From Serratia marcescens (lineage in GTDB: Bacteria > Pseudomonadota > Gammaproteobacteria > Enterobacterales > Enterobacteriaceae), in NCBI RefSeq assembly GCF_006715005.1, contig NZ_VFMJ01000001.1, positions 496,001 through 560,000 on the forward strand: DNA of 64,000 nt. The letters are read 5' to 3'. The notes under the pieces are model-generated. The model ran no database searches and had not been told where the DNA came from. It saw nothing but the letters and a program-made list of their open reading frames with translations. Each line of letters opens with the position of its first letter. Positions within the stretch are counted from its first letter, which is position 1. Shown in pieces: positions 16,400 to 60,855 of the stretch. Both the position numbers and the translations under genes were made by a program.

Positions 16400-16894
16400 A
16401 TGAGACTGACATCCAAAGGCCGTTATGCCGTAACCGCTATGCTTGACGTAGCGCTGCATTCCCAGGAAGGGCCGGTGCCACTGGCGGACATTTCCGAACG
16501 CCAGGGTATTTCGCTCTCTTATCTGGAACAATTATTCTCCCGTCTGCGCAAGAATGGCCTGGTGGCCAGCGTGCGCGGTCCGGGCGGTGGTTATCTGCTG
16601 GGTAAAGACGCGGGTGAGATCGCCGTTGGCGCTGTCATCACTGCCGTCGATGAATCGGTAGATGCAACCCGTTGCCAGGGCAAAGAAGGCTGTCAGGGCG
16701 GCGATCGCTGCTTGACCCACGCCCTGTGGCGCGATCTGAGCGAGCGCATCAGCGGGTTCCTGAACAACATTACGCTGGCAGAACTGGTCAACAACCAGGA
16801 AGTGCTGGTGGTGGCGGATCGTCAAAACAACGATACGCGCCGCACGGCCAACGGTCGTCCGCAAGAAACTATCAACGTTAATCTGCGCGCATAA
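16400..16894 (+). CDS. iscR: Fe-S cluster assembly regulator IscR
   Basis: Rrf2-family winged-helix repressor of 164 residues that senses Fe-S status through a [2Fe-2S] cluster. The recognition helix region is near [19 protein letters not shown]. The cluster ligands Cys92, Cys98 and Cys104 lie in the segment [13 protein letters not shown], and the fourth ligand in E. coli is His107, here in LTH. It heads the operon iscRSUA-hscBA-fdx-iscX. Confidence 0.98.
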
Positions 16895-16948
16895 GCAGCT
16901 GGCGAAATTATTTTAGTTTTTGGAAGTGATGTACGGAGCACAAGAGCA

Positions 16949-18163
16949 ATGAAATTACCGATTTATCTGGATTACTCAGCAACGACGCCGGTTGACCCGC
17001 GCGTTGCTGAGAAGATGATGCAGTTTTTGACCCTGGACGGCACTTTTGGCAACCCGGCTTCCCGTTCCCACCGTTTCGGTTGGCAGGCGGAAGAGGCGGT
17101 AGACATCGCCCGTAACCAAATCGCCGAACTGGTGGGCGCCGACCCACGCGAAATCGTCTTCACCTCCGGGGCGACCGAATCCGACAACCTGGCGATTAAA
17201 GGTGCTGCCAATTTCTACCAGAAAAAAGGCAAGCACATCATCACCAGCAAAACCGAACACAAAGCCGTGCTGGACACCTGCCGTCAGCTGGAGCGCGAAG
17301 GGTTTGAAGTGACCTACCTGGCGCCGCAGAGCAACGGCATCATCAGCCTGCAGGATCTCGAAGCGGCGATGCGCGATGACACCATCCTGGTCTCCATCAT
17401 GCACGTCAACAACGAGATCGGCGTGGTGCAGGACATCGAAGCGATCGGTGAAATGTGCCGTGCGCGCGGTATCATCTACCACGTTGACGCCACCCAGAGC
17501 GTGGGCAAACTGCCTATCGATCTGAGCAAGCTGAAAGTCGACCTGATGTCGTTCTCCGGCCACAAAATCTATGGCCCGAAAGGCATCGGTGCGCTGTACG
17601 TGCGTCGCAAGCCGCGCATCCGCATCGAAGCGCAGGTACACGGCGGCGGTCACGAGCGCGGCATGCGTTCCGGCACCCTGCCTGTCCACCAGATCGTCGG
17701 CATGGGCGAAGCTTACCGCATCGCCAAAGAAGAGATGACCGAAGAGATGGCGCGTCTGCGCACCCTGCGCGATCGTCTGTGGAACGGCGTGAAAGATATG
17801 GAAGAAGTTTATCTGAACGGCGATCTGGAGCACGGCGCACCGAACATCCTGAACGTCAGCTTCAACTACGTTGAAGGCGAGTCGCTGATCATGGCGCTGA
17901 AAGACCTGGCCGTTTCTTCCGGTTCAGCCTGTACCTCCGCCAGCCTCGAGCCGTCCTACGTGCTGCGCGCGCTGGGCATGAGCGATGAATTGGCGCACAG
18001 CTCGATCCGTTTCTCCCTGGGGCGTTTCACCACGGAAGAAGAGATCGACTACACCATTCAACTGGTGCGTAAATCCATCGGCCGTCTGCGCGATCTGTCC
18101 CCACTGTGGGAGATGTTCAAGCAGGGCGTGGACATCAACAGCATCGAATGGGCGCATCATTAA
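16949..18163 (+). CDS. iscS: Cysteine desulfurase IscS
   Basis: PLP enzyme of 404 residues that takes sulfur from cysteine and passes it to IscU, ThiI and TusA. The PLP lysine is in [10 protein letters not shown]. The mobile loop with catalytic Cys328 is [17 protein letters not shown]. Length and N-terminus ([23 protein letters not shown]) match E. coli. It is second in the isc operon. Confidence 0.98.
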
Positions 18164-52111: not shown

Positions 52112-55100
52112 GTGAATGACAAGACATCGCACCCTTTAGCGGTTAAAACACCGCTTTCCAAACTTTACCTCGCTCTATTTTCTGCGCCGCTGTTGATGCT
52201 GGCGCCCGCCGATATTGCTCGTGCAGACGATGCCATTTTTGACGGCGACTCAAAAATTACCGAATCATTGGCCTACACCGGGGACGTTTACGTCGGCCGC
52301 AATCAAAGCGGCAACCTGCTGATCGAGAATGGCAAGATCAGCGCCTATAACATCAATATCGGCCGGATGTTCAACGGCCAAATTCATGAGAGCGTAGTCA
52401 CGGTCCGCGGGCCGAACGCCGAGCTGAACGCGGTGAACGATCAGTTCGTGCTGCGTGGCGGCCTGAATCTGGGGCGGGGCACCTTGCGGGTTGAAGACGG
52501 CGCGCTGGCCAGCGCGAAAGAGATCGTGGTCGGCACCACCCGCGGCTACGACAGCCACCTGATCGCCACCGGCGCCGGTTCTCGCGTCACCAGCAATTTT
52601 CTCAGCGTCGGCACCGACTTAGGGGCACGATCCACGCTGGCGATTGAAGACGGCGCGGTGCTGAACACCGCCTTTGACGCGCGCATCGGTAATGGCAGCG
52701 GGCCGGGCGAGACCGATACGCTGAGCCCGAAAGCCACGGTCACGGGGGCCAATTCCCAATGGAACGTTGGCCGCGCGCTCACGCTTTACGGCGATCTGGA
52801 CGTGCTGAACGGCGGCGCGGTCAACGTCGGTAATATTCAGGTGGCGGGCGTCTCCGGCGCGCGTAAAACCGCCGAGCTGACGATCGCCGGCAACGGTTCA
52901 CGGTTTACCAGCGGCAGCAGCGTCAACGTCGGCGATTACGGCAATGGCGTGTTGGCGGTCATGGACGGCGGCACATTCTCCGCCGGCGGCAACGACGTGG
53001 TGCTGGGCGAGACCGGTTCCGGTTCTAACCGCGGCGCGCTGATTATCGGCAGCCGCGGCAACATGGATACCGGCACCGGGTTGACCGAGCCGACGCTCGG
53101 CGCGGCGGGCGCTGCAGGCACTATCGATGCCCAGACGGCGATCGCCCTGCGGGGCGGATTGTTCCGCAGCTATGTGTACTTTAACCATACCGACGGCAAT
53201 TACGTCTTCAGCAACAAGATGAGCGGCGAAGGCGAGGTGATCAACACCGCCGGGCACACGACGCTGAACGGCGATCTCACTGGCCTGCAGGCAAACGTCA
53301 CCGCGCGCGGCGGTAAGCTCATCATCGCCAGCGACATCAATACCCAGAAAGAAGACGATATCTTCGAGATCCAAACCCTCAGCGCCGAGAACGGCGGCAC
53401 GCTGATCCTCAATGCGACGGCGGGTGCCGACGTCAATAACGGGCAGGGCTACAGCAGCGCCGCGTCGATCAAGGCCGGCGGCACGCTGGGCGGCAACGGC
53501 ACGCTGGGCCAGACCGAGATCCAGTCCGGCGGCCATATCTCGCCCGGCGACGGCAATATCGGCACGCTGACGCTGAAACGCTACCTGAATTTTATCGGCG
53601 AATCCTTCTATGACGTCGATATCGCCGGCGATGGCCGCAGCGACCAACTGCTGGTGGCGGGCAAAACCACCATCAGCGATCGGGCCAAGGTGCAGGTGAC
53701 GGCGCTGGATCCGCAAACCAGCTATAAAACCGGCCAAAGCTACCGCATTCTGACCTCGGACGGCGGCATTGACGGCCAGTTCGCGGCGGCGGTCTCCAAG
53801 TCTGCCTTCCTCGATGTGGCGTTGAACCACAGCGCCAACGCCGTGGATCTGACCATTGCGCAGAAAGACACGGGCGGTGAAAACCCTGGCGGCGAGAATC
53901 CGGGTGGAGAAAATCCAGGCGGTGAAAACCCGGGCGGCGAGAATCCGGGTGGGGAAAACCCAGGCGGTGAGAATCCAGGGGGCGAGAATCCGGGTGGGGA
54001 AAACCCAGGCGGTGAAAATCCGGGCGGAGAGAACCCGGGCAGCGGCAAGCCGGGCATTTTCCAAACGGTGGCCGAGAGCAGCAACCAGTGGAATACCGCC
54101 GGTGCGCTCTCGACTCTGGTGCAGAGCGGCCCTTCGCTGGCTCTGTATAACTCGCTGCTGCTGCTGAGTGCGCCGGAAGCGCGCGAGGCGTTCAATCAGC
54201 TGTCCGGCGAAGTCTATCCGTCGATGCAGTCTAACCTGATCGCCGGCAGCACCCAGCTGTTCAACGTGCTGAACCAGCGCATGCTGCGCCTGTTCGACAA
54301 TGACAGCCTGCCGGTACCGCCGTTGGCGATGTCGCTGGTGCAACCGGCGCAGGCGCAAAACAGCGGCGTCTGGGGACAGACCTTCAGTTCCTGGGGCAAA
54401 AACAGCGGCAACGGCAACGTGGGCAAGCTGGATGGCAACACCACCGGCTTCCTGTTGGGGGCGGATCGCAAGCTGGCGGACCATAACGTGCGCATCGGCG
54501 GCTACTTCGGTTACAGCCGCGGCGACTACGACGTCGACAGCCGCCGTTCCAAGGCCGATACCGACAACTACCACCTCGGCCTGTATGCGGCGGGGCAGCA
54601 GGATGCGTTCTCGCTGCGCGGCGCGCTGGGTTACACCTGGCACAAGATTGAAGGCAAGCGCAACGTCGATTTCAGCGGCTTCTCGGATCGGCTGAAGTCG
54701 GACTACGACGCCAACTCGCTGCTGGCGTTCACTGAAGCGGGTTACCGTTTTGGCCAGCCGGAGATGAACGTCGAACCGTTCATCAACCTGAGCTATATCC
54801 GCCTGCATACCGACAGCTTCCAGGAGTCGGGTGGCGCGGCGGCGCTGAGCGTGCGCAATGAAACGATGAATACCTTCTACTCTACGCTCGGGGTGCGCGG
54901 CGTGACCGAGCTGCCGAAGAATGTCAGCCTTTACGGCTCGCTCGGCTGGCAGCACGCCTACGGCGATAAGAACACCTCATCGCGCATGGCGTTTGCCGGC
55001 AGCGACGCGTTCGTCACTCAGGGCCAGGCCGTGGATGACAACGTAATGGTGGGCGATATCGGCGTGAGCGTGAAGCTGTCGCGCGCCGCGACGCTGGATG

Positions 55101-55174
55101 TCGGCTATCAGGGGCAATTCGGCGCCGATACCCGCGTCAATTCGGTCAACGCCAACCTGCGCTGGTCGTTCTGA
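52112..55174 (+). CDS. Type Va autotransporter with GGENP-repeat linker
   Basis: Outer-membrane autotransporter of 1020 residues with a GTG start preceded by GGAG. A signal peptide (cleavage probably after ADIARA, residue 38) leads to a passenger of beta-helix type with short GS-type repeats (residues 40-585). Residues 588-642 are eleven tandem GGENP units. A helical linker follows, then a C-terminal 12-strand barrel from about residue 745 (GVWGQTFSSWGKNSG) ending in NLRWSF with the required terminal Phe. No protease, SGNH or adhesion motif is recognised in the passenger, so an adhesin or biofilm role is only a guess. BamB and the BAM complex would insert it. Confidence 0.9.
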   Translation: MNDKTSHPLAVKTPLSKLYLALFSAPLLMLAPADIARADDAIFDGDSKITESLAYTGDVYVGRNQSGNLLIENGKISAYNINIGRMFNGQIHESVVTVRGPNAELNAVNDQFVLRGGLNLGRGTLRVEDGALASAKEIVVGTTRGYDSHLIATGAGSRVTSNFLSVGTDLGARSTLAIEDGAVLNTAFDARIGNGSGPGETDTLSPKATVTGANSQWNVGRALTLYGDLDVLNGGAVNVGNIQVAGVSGARKTAELTIAGNGSRFTSGSSVNVGDYGNGVLAVMDGGTFSAGGNDVVLGETGSGSNRGALIIGSRGNMDTGTGLTEPTLGAAGAAGTIDAQTAIALRGGLFRSYVYFNHTDGNYVFSNKMSGEGEVINTAGHTTLNGDLTGLQANVTARGGKLIIASDINTQKEDDIFEIQTLSAENGGTLILNATAGADVNNGQGYSSAASIKAGGTLGGNGTLGQTEIQSGGHISPGDGNIGTLTLKRYLNFIGESFYDVDIAGDGRSDQLLVAGKTTISDRAKVQVTALDPQTSYKTGQSYRILTSDGGIDGQFAAAVSKSAFLDVALNHSANAVDLTIAQKDTGGENPGGENPGGENPGGENPGGENPGGENPGGENPGGENPGGENPGGENPGGENPGSGKPGIFQTVAESSNQWNTAGALSTLVQSGPSLALYNSLLLLSAPEAREAFNQLSGEVYPSMQSNLIAGSTQLFNVLNQRMLRLFDNDSLPVPPLAMSLVQPAQAQNSGVWGQTFSSWGKNSGNGNVGKLDGNTTGFLLGADRKLADHNVRIGGYFGYSRGDYDVDSRRSKADTDNYHLGLYAAGQQDAFSLRGALGYTWHKIEGKRNVDFSGFSDRLKSDYDANSLLAFTEAGYRFGQPEMNVEPFINLSYIRLHTDSFQESGGAAALSVRNETMNTFYSTLGVRGVTELPKNVSLYGSLGWQHAYGDKNTSSRMAFAGSDAFVTQGQAVDDNVMVGDIGVSVKLSRAATLDVGYQGQFGADTRVNSVNANLRWSF
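53873..54037 (+). repeat. Eleven 15-base tandem repeats coding GGENP
   Basis: Eleven in-frame units code Gly-Gly-Glu-Asn-Pro without a single amino-acid change, while the codons vary (GGC/GGT/GGG/GGA, GAA/GAG, AAC/AAT, CCG/CCA/CCT). Copy-number change would keep the frame. It separates passenger from barrel. Confidence 0.95.
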
Positions 55175-55203
55175 TTTTTCCTCTAGACTTCTCTGGTACT
55201 TGC

Positions 55204-55230
55204 AGGCCCGCTTGATGCGGGCCTTTTTTA
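55204..55230 (+). terminator. Intrinsic terminator after the autotransporter
   Basis: The perfect stem AGGCCCGC-TTGAT-GCGGGCCT is followed by TTTTTA, 30 bases after the stop. Confidence 0.9.
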
Positions 55231-55296
55231 TGGTGAGAACTCAGTGGCGGCCTGCGACTGACTTTTATGATAAAAAAGCCCGCGCAACGGCGCAAT

Positions 55297-55330
55297 GCCG
55301 CTCACTTAAGCCTGAGTGGCATTTTTTTAT
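55297..55330 (+). terminator. Second rightward terminator-like hairpin
   Basis: The stem GCCGCTCA ... TGAGTGGC (one G-U) around CTTAAGCC is followed by ATTTTTTTAT. The preceding AATGCCGCTCACTTAAG also resembles the end of IS4-family elements, so this could be a leftover terminal repeat rather than a dedicated terminator. No transposase is present. Confidence 0.55.
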
Positions 55331-55588
55331 CCAGCCTCTGGGCGTTCTGTGCAGGGGGAATTGCCGTAAATGTCCCGCATTTCTCTGCGGCCAATATGAA
55401 CGGCAATTGGAGGGGCCGATGGCGCGGCCCCTCCACCCGCGCCTTCGCTTAACACCATCTGTCCGCTACGCGGAAATTACTCGGCCCATCCTGGGCCTCG
55501 CCCCTTCGGGGCCGCTGCAAGCAGCGTTCAAATCTGCTCCCGGCAGATTTGTCCTCGCCGCGTCTGCGTTGTCGGGCGGGTCGGCTGC

Positions 55589-55638
55589 GACAAACGTCCC
55601 TGTTAGTCTCGCCTCAACCGGCCTTCCCTGGCCGGTTG
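55589..55638 (-). repeat. Two-hairpin GGA unit, copy M (minus orientation)
   Basis: Read on the minus strand: hairpin CAACCGGCC-AGGGAA-GGCCGGTTG, spacer AGGCGA, hairpin GACTAAC-AGGGAC-GTTTGTC, then GCA. It is homologous to the plus-strand unit at 55810-55859, with 34 of 45 bases identical from the right arm of the first hairpin onward. Confidence 0.75.
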
Positions 55639-55809
55639 ACCCTGACAACGCCGTCTTGCTCGGCAGACGGTGATGCGCGCTAAAGGTCAACACCTGAGCT
55701 GGCTGCTACCGGGAAATCTGTCGCTTATGAGCTTCTGGTAGAGAAGTTGGAGATGAGCGCGGTGTTGGGCGCCCTTGAAGACGCCGAACGCAGGCATAGC
55801 GCATTAGGC

Positions 55810-55859
55810 GAAACCGCCATGGACGGCGGTTTCAGGTGAGACAGGCAGGGACGCCTGTC
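55810..55859 (+). repeat. Two-hairpin GGA unit, copy P (plus orientation)
   Basis: Hairpin GAAACCGCC-ATGGAC-GGCGGTTTC, spacer AGGTGA, hairpin GACAGGC-AGGGAC-GCCTGTC, then GCA. Compared with the inverted copy, three base pairs of the first stem and two of the second have changed on both sides so that pairing is kept, while the second loop is identical. Confidence 0.75.
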
Positions 55860-56096
55860 GCAACCGGCCTCAATGCGGTATGGCGGAGGGAGGGGAGTTG
55901 GCAAAGCCAACCGTCTGATAGGGCAAAGGCGCGGGTTGCCAGGGGGCGCGCCTTCGGCCCCTGGCTCGGTCGAGGTGCGTGAGCCACATGGGGCATCTCA
56001 CTTTTATCGACCGAAAATGTCACGAACGCCTGCAGAAAAACGCTAACTGATCAGCATTGCGCACAACGGCGGGCTTGCGAGAAGCGCGAGCGGGGG

Positions 56097-56966
56097 TTAA
56101 CGCCCTTTTTTCTTGCGCCCTGGCTGGGCAAAGCGCTTGCGGCCGGCCGGTGCAGCGGCTTTGTCGGCGCTTTTGGGGCCGCCGGCGCTCGGTTTTTTCG
56201 CCGCGGCGGATTTGGCCGGGGCCTTCTTCGCCGGCTTTGCCTCGGACGAGGAGCCTTCAATCAGTTTGAACAGCTCGATCAGCTCGTCATCGGTCAGATC
56301 GCGCCATTCGCCCAGCGGCAAGCCTTTCAGGCCGACGTTCATGATGCGCGTGCGTTCCAGCTTGGTGACCTCGTAGCCGAAGTGTTCGCACATGCGGCGG
56401 ATCTGGCGGTTCAGCCCCTGTACCAGCGTGATGCGGAACACGAAAGGCGCCTCTTTCTTCACCTTGCACTTTTTGGTCACCGTGCCCAGCATCGGCACGC
56501 CGGCGCCCATGCCGCGAATAAACTCGTCGGTCACCGGCTTGTTGACCGTCACCAGATACTCTTTCTCGTGATTGTTGCCGGCGCGCAGGATCTTGTTGAC
56601 CAGGTCACCGTGATTGGTCAGAAAGATCAGCCCCTGCGAATCCTTGTCCAAACGGCCGATCGGGAAGATGCGTTTGCTGTGGTTGACGAAGTCGGCGATG
56701 TTGTCGCGCTCGCCGTCTTCGGTGGTGGTGACGATGCCGACCGGCTTGTTCAGCGCGATCAGCACCAGATCTTCTTCATTGCGCGGTTCGATCAGCTGAC
56801 CGTTAACCTTCACCACATCGCCGGCAAATACCTGAGCGCCCACGGTGGCGCGTTTACCGTTGATGAAAACGTTGCCCTGTTCGATGTATCGATCGGCGTC
56901 GCGGCGTGAGCAGATACCGCTCTCGCTAATGTATTTGTTCAGACGAATGGATGAGTTAGTCAGCAT
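56097..56966 (-). CDS. rluF: 23S rRNA pseudouridine(2604) synthase RluF
   Basis: Pseudouridine synthase of 289 residues for U2604 of 23S rRNA (also tRNA-Tyr U35 in E. coli). An N-terminal S4 RNA-binding domain ([22 protein letters not shown]) is followed by the RsuA-type catalytic domain with the active Asp in [10 protein letters not shown]. The last 50 residues are a low-complexity Lys/Ala/Pro tail ending GRKKKGR that probably contacts RNA. It is convergent with the hairpin cluster. Confidence 0.93.
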
Positions 56967-60581: not shown

Positions 60582-60728
60582 GGCATCTCCCGGTGGTTTG
60601 TGCTCACTATAGCGCATTGTGCAGCGTATGCCCGCTGAGCCTATTTATTCGCTTGTTTGTCCGCGCCGCCGCTGGCATGATCCCCTGCAGGGATTAACGC
60701 AACGTTGATCACAACCTATTGATTTTCA

Positions 60729-60808
60729 TGACTCGGGGTGCCCTTCTACGTGAAGGCTGAGAAATACCCGTATTACCTGATCTGGATAATGCCAGCGTAG
60801 GGAAGTCA
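60729..60808 (+). promoter_or_regulatory. TPP riboswitch (THI element) of thiMD
   Basis: The aptamer has closing stem TGACT/AGTCA, the conserved GGGGTGCCC, CTGAGAAATACCCG, ACCTGATCTGGATAATGCCAG and GTAGGGAAG blocks in order. Downstream, a hairpin CCAGCCGGCG / CGCCGGTTGG (60816-60848) abuts the GGGAGGA ribosome-binding site of thiM, so control is probably at translation. Thiamine pyrophosphate would switch expression off. Confidence 0.97.
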
Positions 60809-60855
60809 CGGCCGCCCAGCCGGCGCCGCCTTCTTGAACGCCGGTTGGGAGGAAT

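Follow-up and report, generated by a model that had tools for sequence, protein, structure and literature searches.

A mobile element of Serratia marcescens carries an inverted pair of GGA-loop hairpin units that may serve as CsrA decoys

The stretch of the Serratia marcescens genome analysed here (64,000 nucleotides, hereafter the window) contains a miniature inverted-repeat transposable element (MITE)-like element that lies between an autotransporter-like gene (52112-55174, plus strand) and a pseudouridine synthase gene (56097-56966, minus strand), which its sequence lets us read as rluB. Its mobility is demonstrated by scattered copies with inverted ends, by duplicated targets and by empty sites; here it has inserted into the stem-loop of a terminator next to rluB. 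It carries two inverted two-hairpin units, for which selection on hairpins with GGA loops is very probable, and RNA is the probable working form of these units. We suggest, with a probability of about one half, that the units act as a CsrA decoy or as a CsrA-bound 3' end. A first-pass annotation had described an array of GGA-loop hairpins at 55409-55964 as a candidate CsrA-binding RNA, a mobile palindrome family or both. The true extent of the cluster is larger, 55293-56059. Its parts are listed below, where R1 is our covariance model of the units, and RF01731 and RF02902 are the Rfam families TwoAYGGAY and AaHKsRNA22.

55293-56059, plus strand: whole mobile element, MITE-like, 767 bp, without transposase; the inverted ends common to the copies set the boundaries.
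55281-55292, no strand: left target duplication CGCGCAACGGCG; the flanks overlap by 12 bp at five empty sites, one of them aligned.
56060-56071, no strand: right target duplication CGCACAACGGCG, differing from the left one by one base; from empty sites and alignment.
55293-55312, plus strand: left terminal inverted repeat CAATGCCGCTCACTTAAGCC; it matches the IS4-subgroup end consensus -AATR--------WTW (available parts of PMC2266710).
56040-56059, minus strand: right terminal inverted repeat, CAATGCTGATCAGTTAGCG as read on the minus strand; from the inverted ends.
55294-55330, plus strand: terminator-like hairpin within the left end, an 11-pair stem followed by a T-run; from a sequence scan.
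55411-55432, plus strand: left outer hairpin; inverted repeat I2, conserved among copies.
55470-55560, minus strand: nested hairpin array related to AaHKsRNA22, the insert spanning about 55473-55553; RF02902 scores 39.4 bits, below the gathering cutoff of 39.8.
55575-55649, minus strand: left two-hairpin unit with loops AGGGAA and AGGGAC; R1 74.3 bits (as a seed sequence), RF01731 31.8 bits.
55658-55798, no strand: variable centre separating the units, without a protein family match; from the copy alignment and profile searches.
55799-55873, plus strand: right two-hairpin unit with loops AUGGAC and AGGGAC; R1 72.8 bits (as a seed sequence), RF01731 33.6 bits.
55941-55962, plus strand: right outer hairpin; inverted repeat I2, kept in the copy alignment.

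The autotransporter-like protein upstream has a central run of GENPG repeats.

Two further copies of the element are present in the same genome, one at 977 kb (G000:C1) with 98% identity and one at 5287 kb with 86-90% identity and the array missing, both between unrelated flanks. Among 30 genomes of the genus, including this one, 14 matched the element at E <=1e-100, 15 gave only short matches (76-127 bases among the loci listed, mostly array-sized) and one gave no match. We examined 63 places, namely 60 regions chosen among the genus matches listed and the three copies of this genome, and could place both ends with at most three mismatches in 54; the other nine were dropped. The copies usually end in the pattern (C/T)AATGC...TCA.TTA, and their sizes cluster around 235, 690, 770 and 850 bp with few between, set by the core plus zero, one or two arrays. 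A target duplication of 10-14 bp was scored in 45 of the 54 end-resolved copies and in none of the remaining nine. The duplications measured 12 bp in 21 copies, 11 bp in 14, 13 bp in six, and 10 and 14 bp in two each; 23 were perfect and seven had three or four mismatches. As a control, the left and right flanks of different copies were paired, of which 175 of 2862 pairings scored, 12 of them perfectly. The insertion site of the window copy was compared at twelve loci, its own among them. It was filled at two of these (the window and G011) and empty in five of the eleven close relatives (L213, L214, L217, L218 and L219), where the flanks overlap by exactly 12 bp; the flanks were altered or different at the other five. 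The suspicion of a mobile palindrome family was therefore well founded.

The target sites resemble terminators. Of the 45 copies with a duplication, 39 have a rejoined empty site whose fold lies more than two standard deviations (s.d.) below shuffled sequences, and in 36 of the 45 an A-run or T-run adjoins this site, as in a terminator. In the terminator-like hairpin of the left end, stem changes are compensated from copy to copy. The element is an example of a MITE that inserts into terminators and supplies its own terminator-like end.

The units have spread beyond the genus. R1 was built from 21 units, one row being a mixture, with both window units in the seed. This genome contains six R1 units, arranged as three inverted pairs. 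The covariance search proposed with the first-pass annotation did find homologous units elsewhere: of 119 genomes of the family, 38 had matches at E 1e-3 and 36 of these had at least two; of 229 genomes of the class, 16 had matches at E 1e-4. This genome is counted in both surveys, and some seed genomes are within the 119. The copy numbers are lower bounds because only the top candidates per genome were scored. Among the best 150 R1 matches, 43 neighbouring pairs lie less than 1 kb apart, of which 33 are divergent, three point the same way and seven are convergent, the last confined to a single genome; at least 78 of the 150 have an inverted partner. Elements in two other genera repeat the order of left outer hairpin, optional left array, minus-strand unit, centre and plus-strand unit with different ends, and one of them (G049) shares the centre motif GTGATGC..AAGGTCAA with the window element. 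The element core (55554-55900) had no match in E. coli up to E 0.1.

In the window, the hairpin pairs at 55589-55638 (minus) and 55810-55859 (plus) are inverted copies with spacers AGGCGA and AGGTGA and with GGA in all four loops, as had been annotated. Five base pairs differ between the left and right units and all stay paired, as had also been noticed; a sixth differing position, unmentioned then, pairs as A-U in the right unit but is mismatched, as U.U, in the left one. Folding of the region 55405-55970 exceeds chance, lying 7.8 and 7.2 s.d. below shuffled sequences for its two strands. The earlier claim that the structure is selected is well supported by 22 units from many genera, with letters taken from the reference, which formed our main covariation set. 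Paired cells amounted to 85.0% in this set versus 62.9% after shuffling and at most 45.2% after sliding, and covariation was 0.548 versus 0.167 after shuffling, values that none of 500 shuffles reached; double-changed cells numbered 97 versus 32.8. For 71 distinct model-aligned rows, in which the alignment leans towards structure, we obtained 85.6% paired cells and a covariation of 0.580, and the count from alignment A1 agreed (81.4% and 0.503). Helix 3 is the weakest helix, with 73-75% paired.

The loops are conserved too. Among 51 clusters formed at 90% identity, loop 1 has GGA in 50 and loop 2 likewise in 50, a cross-genus count that is partly circular because covariance searches favour GGA loops. 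Since such searches reward GGA, we also inspected 38 long copies that BLAST alone had identified. GGA was intact in 37/37, 37/37, 38/38 and 37/38 of their loops (one row is gapped in the right unit), while the base preceding GGA in right hairpin 1 varied (T in 32, G in three and A in two). Over these copies the mean majority of the units was 0.980 and 0.950 and that of the outer hairpins 0.954 (left) and 0.926, against 0.888 for the centre and 0.875 and 0.870 for the ends; the share of invariant sites was 0.77 and 0.73 in the units and at most 0.60 elsewhere in the element. This conservation within the genus is support rather than proof because the copies are closely related.

The loops suggest CsrA as a partner. 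According to the available parts of PMC7652899, the CsrA consensus from systematic evolution of ligands by exponential enrichment (SELEX) is RUACARGGAUGU with GGA in mostly six-base hairpin loops, and one CsrA dimer bridges sites 10-63 nt apart. The window units present A-N-GGA-N hexaloops closed by C-G, most loops read A-N-GGA-Y, the gap from GGA to GGA is 25 nt in both units, and a csrA gene is present in this genome. The motif CANGGAYG occurs in the window at chance level (16 found, 21 expected) and therefore counts only through its place in covarying hairpins. Selection on RNA of the GGA strand would predict more G-U than A-C. The ratio came to 10 to 1 for helices 1 and 2, to 12 to 10 for helix 3 and to 11 to 4 for variant pair types within the genus. 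The excess of G-U is suggestive of GGA-strand RNA and nothing firmer, and we dropped the comparison as proof of the transcribed strand.

We propose the following scheme. Its first step is established, in that a non-autonomous transposon of the IS4 subgroup jumped into the loop of the terminator beside rluB. The terminator-like hairpin in its left end would replace the split terminator, and may make insertions into terminators cheap. Read-through from rluB on the minus strand would enter the split terminator and transcribe the element. The minus strand is the likelier transcript because the split terminator faces rluB, with the A-run on the left flank, and such a transcript would include, in the GGA sense, the left unit together with the array. 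The transcribed strand would expose the two GGA loops of the unit in the same orientation, at a distance that one CsrA dimer could bridge, and the unit RNA would serve as a small CsrA decoy or a CsrA-bound 3' end. Transposition would then spread CsrA decoys around the genome.

Several observations weigh against this CsrA reading. One of the five covariation measures, further pair types, was not above shuffles (reached by 80 of 500 for the 22 units and by 128 of 500 for the 71 model-aligned rows), and the partial circularity of the loop count and the slightness of the G-U excess belong here as well. The GGA-less strand folds about equally well or better. The units share GGA in hairpin loops with the SELEX winners, but their stems reach 7-9 pairs, whereas most winners have at most four (PMC7652899, parts available). 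A consensus scan of 55150-56150 found no sigma-70-like promoter. When the full minus strand is folded in silico, left hairpin 2 loses its GGA loop and almost its entire stem to predicted pairing with the right arm, although the loop of left hairpin 1 stays open. The array has lost GGA in some genera (for example L143, L145 and L150).

The equal folding of the two strands and the promoter scan also fit a different explanation, that the palindromes act at the DNA level only, as parts of a transposon whose regularity template switching or gene conversion maintains, without a role as RNA. Likewise consistent with it, the stems, where paired, are nearly all Watson-Crick, and the element belongs to a known class of mobile DNA. 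We nevertheless find this explanation somewhat unlikely. Short forms of about 235 bp lack the units and have the same ends and the same duplications, so the units are dispensable for transposition, and a transposition role for them is disfavoured because these forms jump without them. Template switching would not keep GGA loops while the stems vary. The units also have the largest share of invariant sites, but by mean majority the left outer hairpin equals the right unit.

The insertions into terminators would also suit hairpins that act on neighbouring mRNAs without CsrA, stabilising 3' ends or serving as RNase sites in the way reported for the ERIC and YPAL repeats. Stabilising hairpins need no set loop, yet GGA is invariant here, which makes this explanation quite improbable. 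That the region encodes a small protein can be dismissed almost entirely: a 103-codon frame is open in several copies but broken in others, including the window copy, and the centre contains many indels. Six frames searched against three libraries matched nothing in NCBIfam or PHROGs up to E 1, and Pfam gave a single match at chance level (E 0.28). We likewise rejected a phage origin of the core 55554-55900, for which the best phage match reached only E 0.1, and a link to phage c4/icd immunity RNA, since no C4 family is among the Rfam matches listed up to E 10.

The nested array has a history of its own. It matches the whole AaHKsRNA22 model on the minus strand, as noted below the cutoff, and differs from that family as a nested, separately spread module. 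It stands alone, without the rest of the element, at about 492 kb of this genome (491943), and three more AaHKsRNA22-like matches of 34.9 bits each were seen there (G000:C1:356114, 4626400 and 4752828). AaHKsRNA22 scored above its cutoff in five of 60 family genomes, and the array seems to spread independently because one genome alone (G070) has 53 AaHKsRNA22-like matches up to E 0.1. A phage search with the whole element returned six Salmonella records, matching at array positions only. The additional minus-strand GGA hairpins that had been noted near 55483 and 55530 are present in the array. We rejected the array as a set of CsrA sites, its GGA not being conserved across genera; of the CsrA-like loops claimed for the whole cluster, those of the units (A-N-GGA-Y, closed by C-G) remain plausible and those of the array are weaker. 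Array-like matches also occur in E. coli chromosomes (674 of 5426 genomes). In the two records inspected they fall outside annotated genes, in one case between yehK and yehL and in the other near an IS66 element. In another genus, an array-like stretch seems to be inserted inside the second hairpin of a unit (L158, about 630-708), where Rfam lists no array match.

Among known systems, the CsrB/RsmZ sponge RNAs likewise present several GGA-loop hairpins in a CsrA-like context. Unlike them, the window element is mobile, multi-copy and inverted, has two sites per unit and gave no promoter in the consensus scan. Neither of the two Rfam matches at gathering score in the window belongs to the CsrB/RsmZ family, and none is listed up to E 10 with same-clan overlaps suppressed. 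Elsewhere in the window, Rfam reports a thiamine pyrophosphate (TPP) riboswitch at 60724-60820 (plus strand, 72.9 bits, above its cutoff) and an IscS1_thermometer match at 16795-16977 (plus strand, 141.5 bits).

YPAL/RU-2 of Yersinia is also a dispersed mobile repeat, and two A-N-GGA-Y hairpins can be read in its printed sequence (PMC2759123, parts available). In the portion available of a review (PMC2229807), YPAL targets span or adjoin dyad symmetries and YPAL is described as 'co-translated with upstream genes'. It differs in its length of about 168 bp, its single unit, its duplications of 3-26 bp and its other second hairpin; the window element has 767 bp and two units. By exact-pattern scan, YPAL occurs in at least 120 stretches, mostly Yersinia, the other holders being Pectobacterium, Aliidiomarina, Pantoea, Erwinia, Sodalis and one contig labelled Verrucomicrobia. 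R1 scored weakly on YPAL loci (16-27 bits, E 0.0002-0.09), a biased sample chosen by the exact YPAL pattern, in which the two best R1 matches lie elsewhere in the loci. Ysr224 (RF02770) matches all eight YPAL loci scanned, four above cutoff, on the strand opposite GGA. The likeness to YPAL is clear, a common ancestry with the units is not.

Among the closest known systems for the element as a whole are the insertion sequences (ISs) and MITEs of the IS4 subgroup, for which the available text of PMC2266710 gives the end consensus cited above and strong target selectivity in some members. The window copy has such ends and, as IS4-subgroup MITEs do, direct repeats within 10-13 bp, here of 12 bp, and transposase-bearing elements of the genus have similar ends; unlike the ISs, it has no transposase. 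An IS4-type transposase is present in four of the 30 genus genomes. Both ends match the end pattern without mismatch at 10 of 20 transposase loci examined, all of one genome. An Nterm_IS4-type transposase was not found in the genome of the window copy, which may therefore now be stranded.

The window units themselves are, judged by alignment, divergent relatives of TwoAYGGAY. Both scored below its gathering cutoff of 43 bits, and the highest score in 16 loci scanned was 40.9 bits, but the units can be aligned with members above the cutoff and have two GGA-loop hairpins with covarying stems. TwoAYGGAY scored above cutoff in seven of 60 family genomes, one genome having 37 matches up to E 0.1, and divergent pairs were found at loci from six of these seven (G031, G038, G049, G055, G068 and G076). 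Its binding of CsrA was predicted in 2014 from motif matches (PMC4333381, parts available), a prediction on which the element bears, and we found no report of TwoAYGGAY as mobile in the open-licence literature. We tentatively raise a doubtful but wider idea: TwoAYGGAY could be the cargo of transposon-like repeats in many Gammaproteobacteria rather than a host regulatory RNA, a mobile CsrA decoy whose copy number and sites might tune the Csr network or shield the element from the host. An Rfam family of unknown function is tied here to mobile DNA, which invites a new look at its distribution as transposon spread; if the units bind CsrA, transposition would be a route for multiplying post-transcriptional decoys in genomes. 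TwoAYGGAY (clan CL00106) and the window units both consist of two GGA-loop hairpins enclosed by an outer stem, but Rfam types the family as a cis-regulatory RNA, whereas here the hairpins are mobile cargo in inverted pairs.
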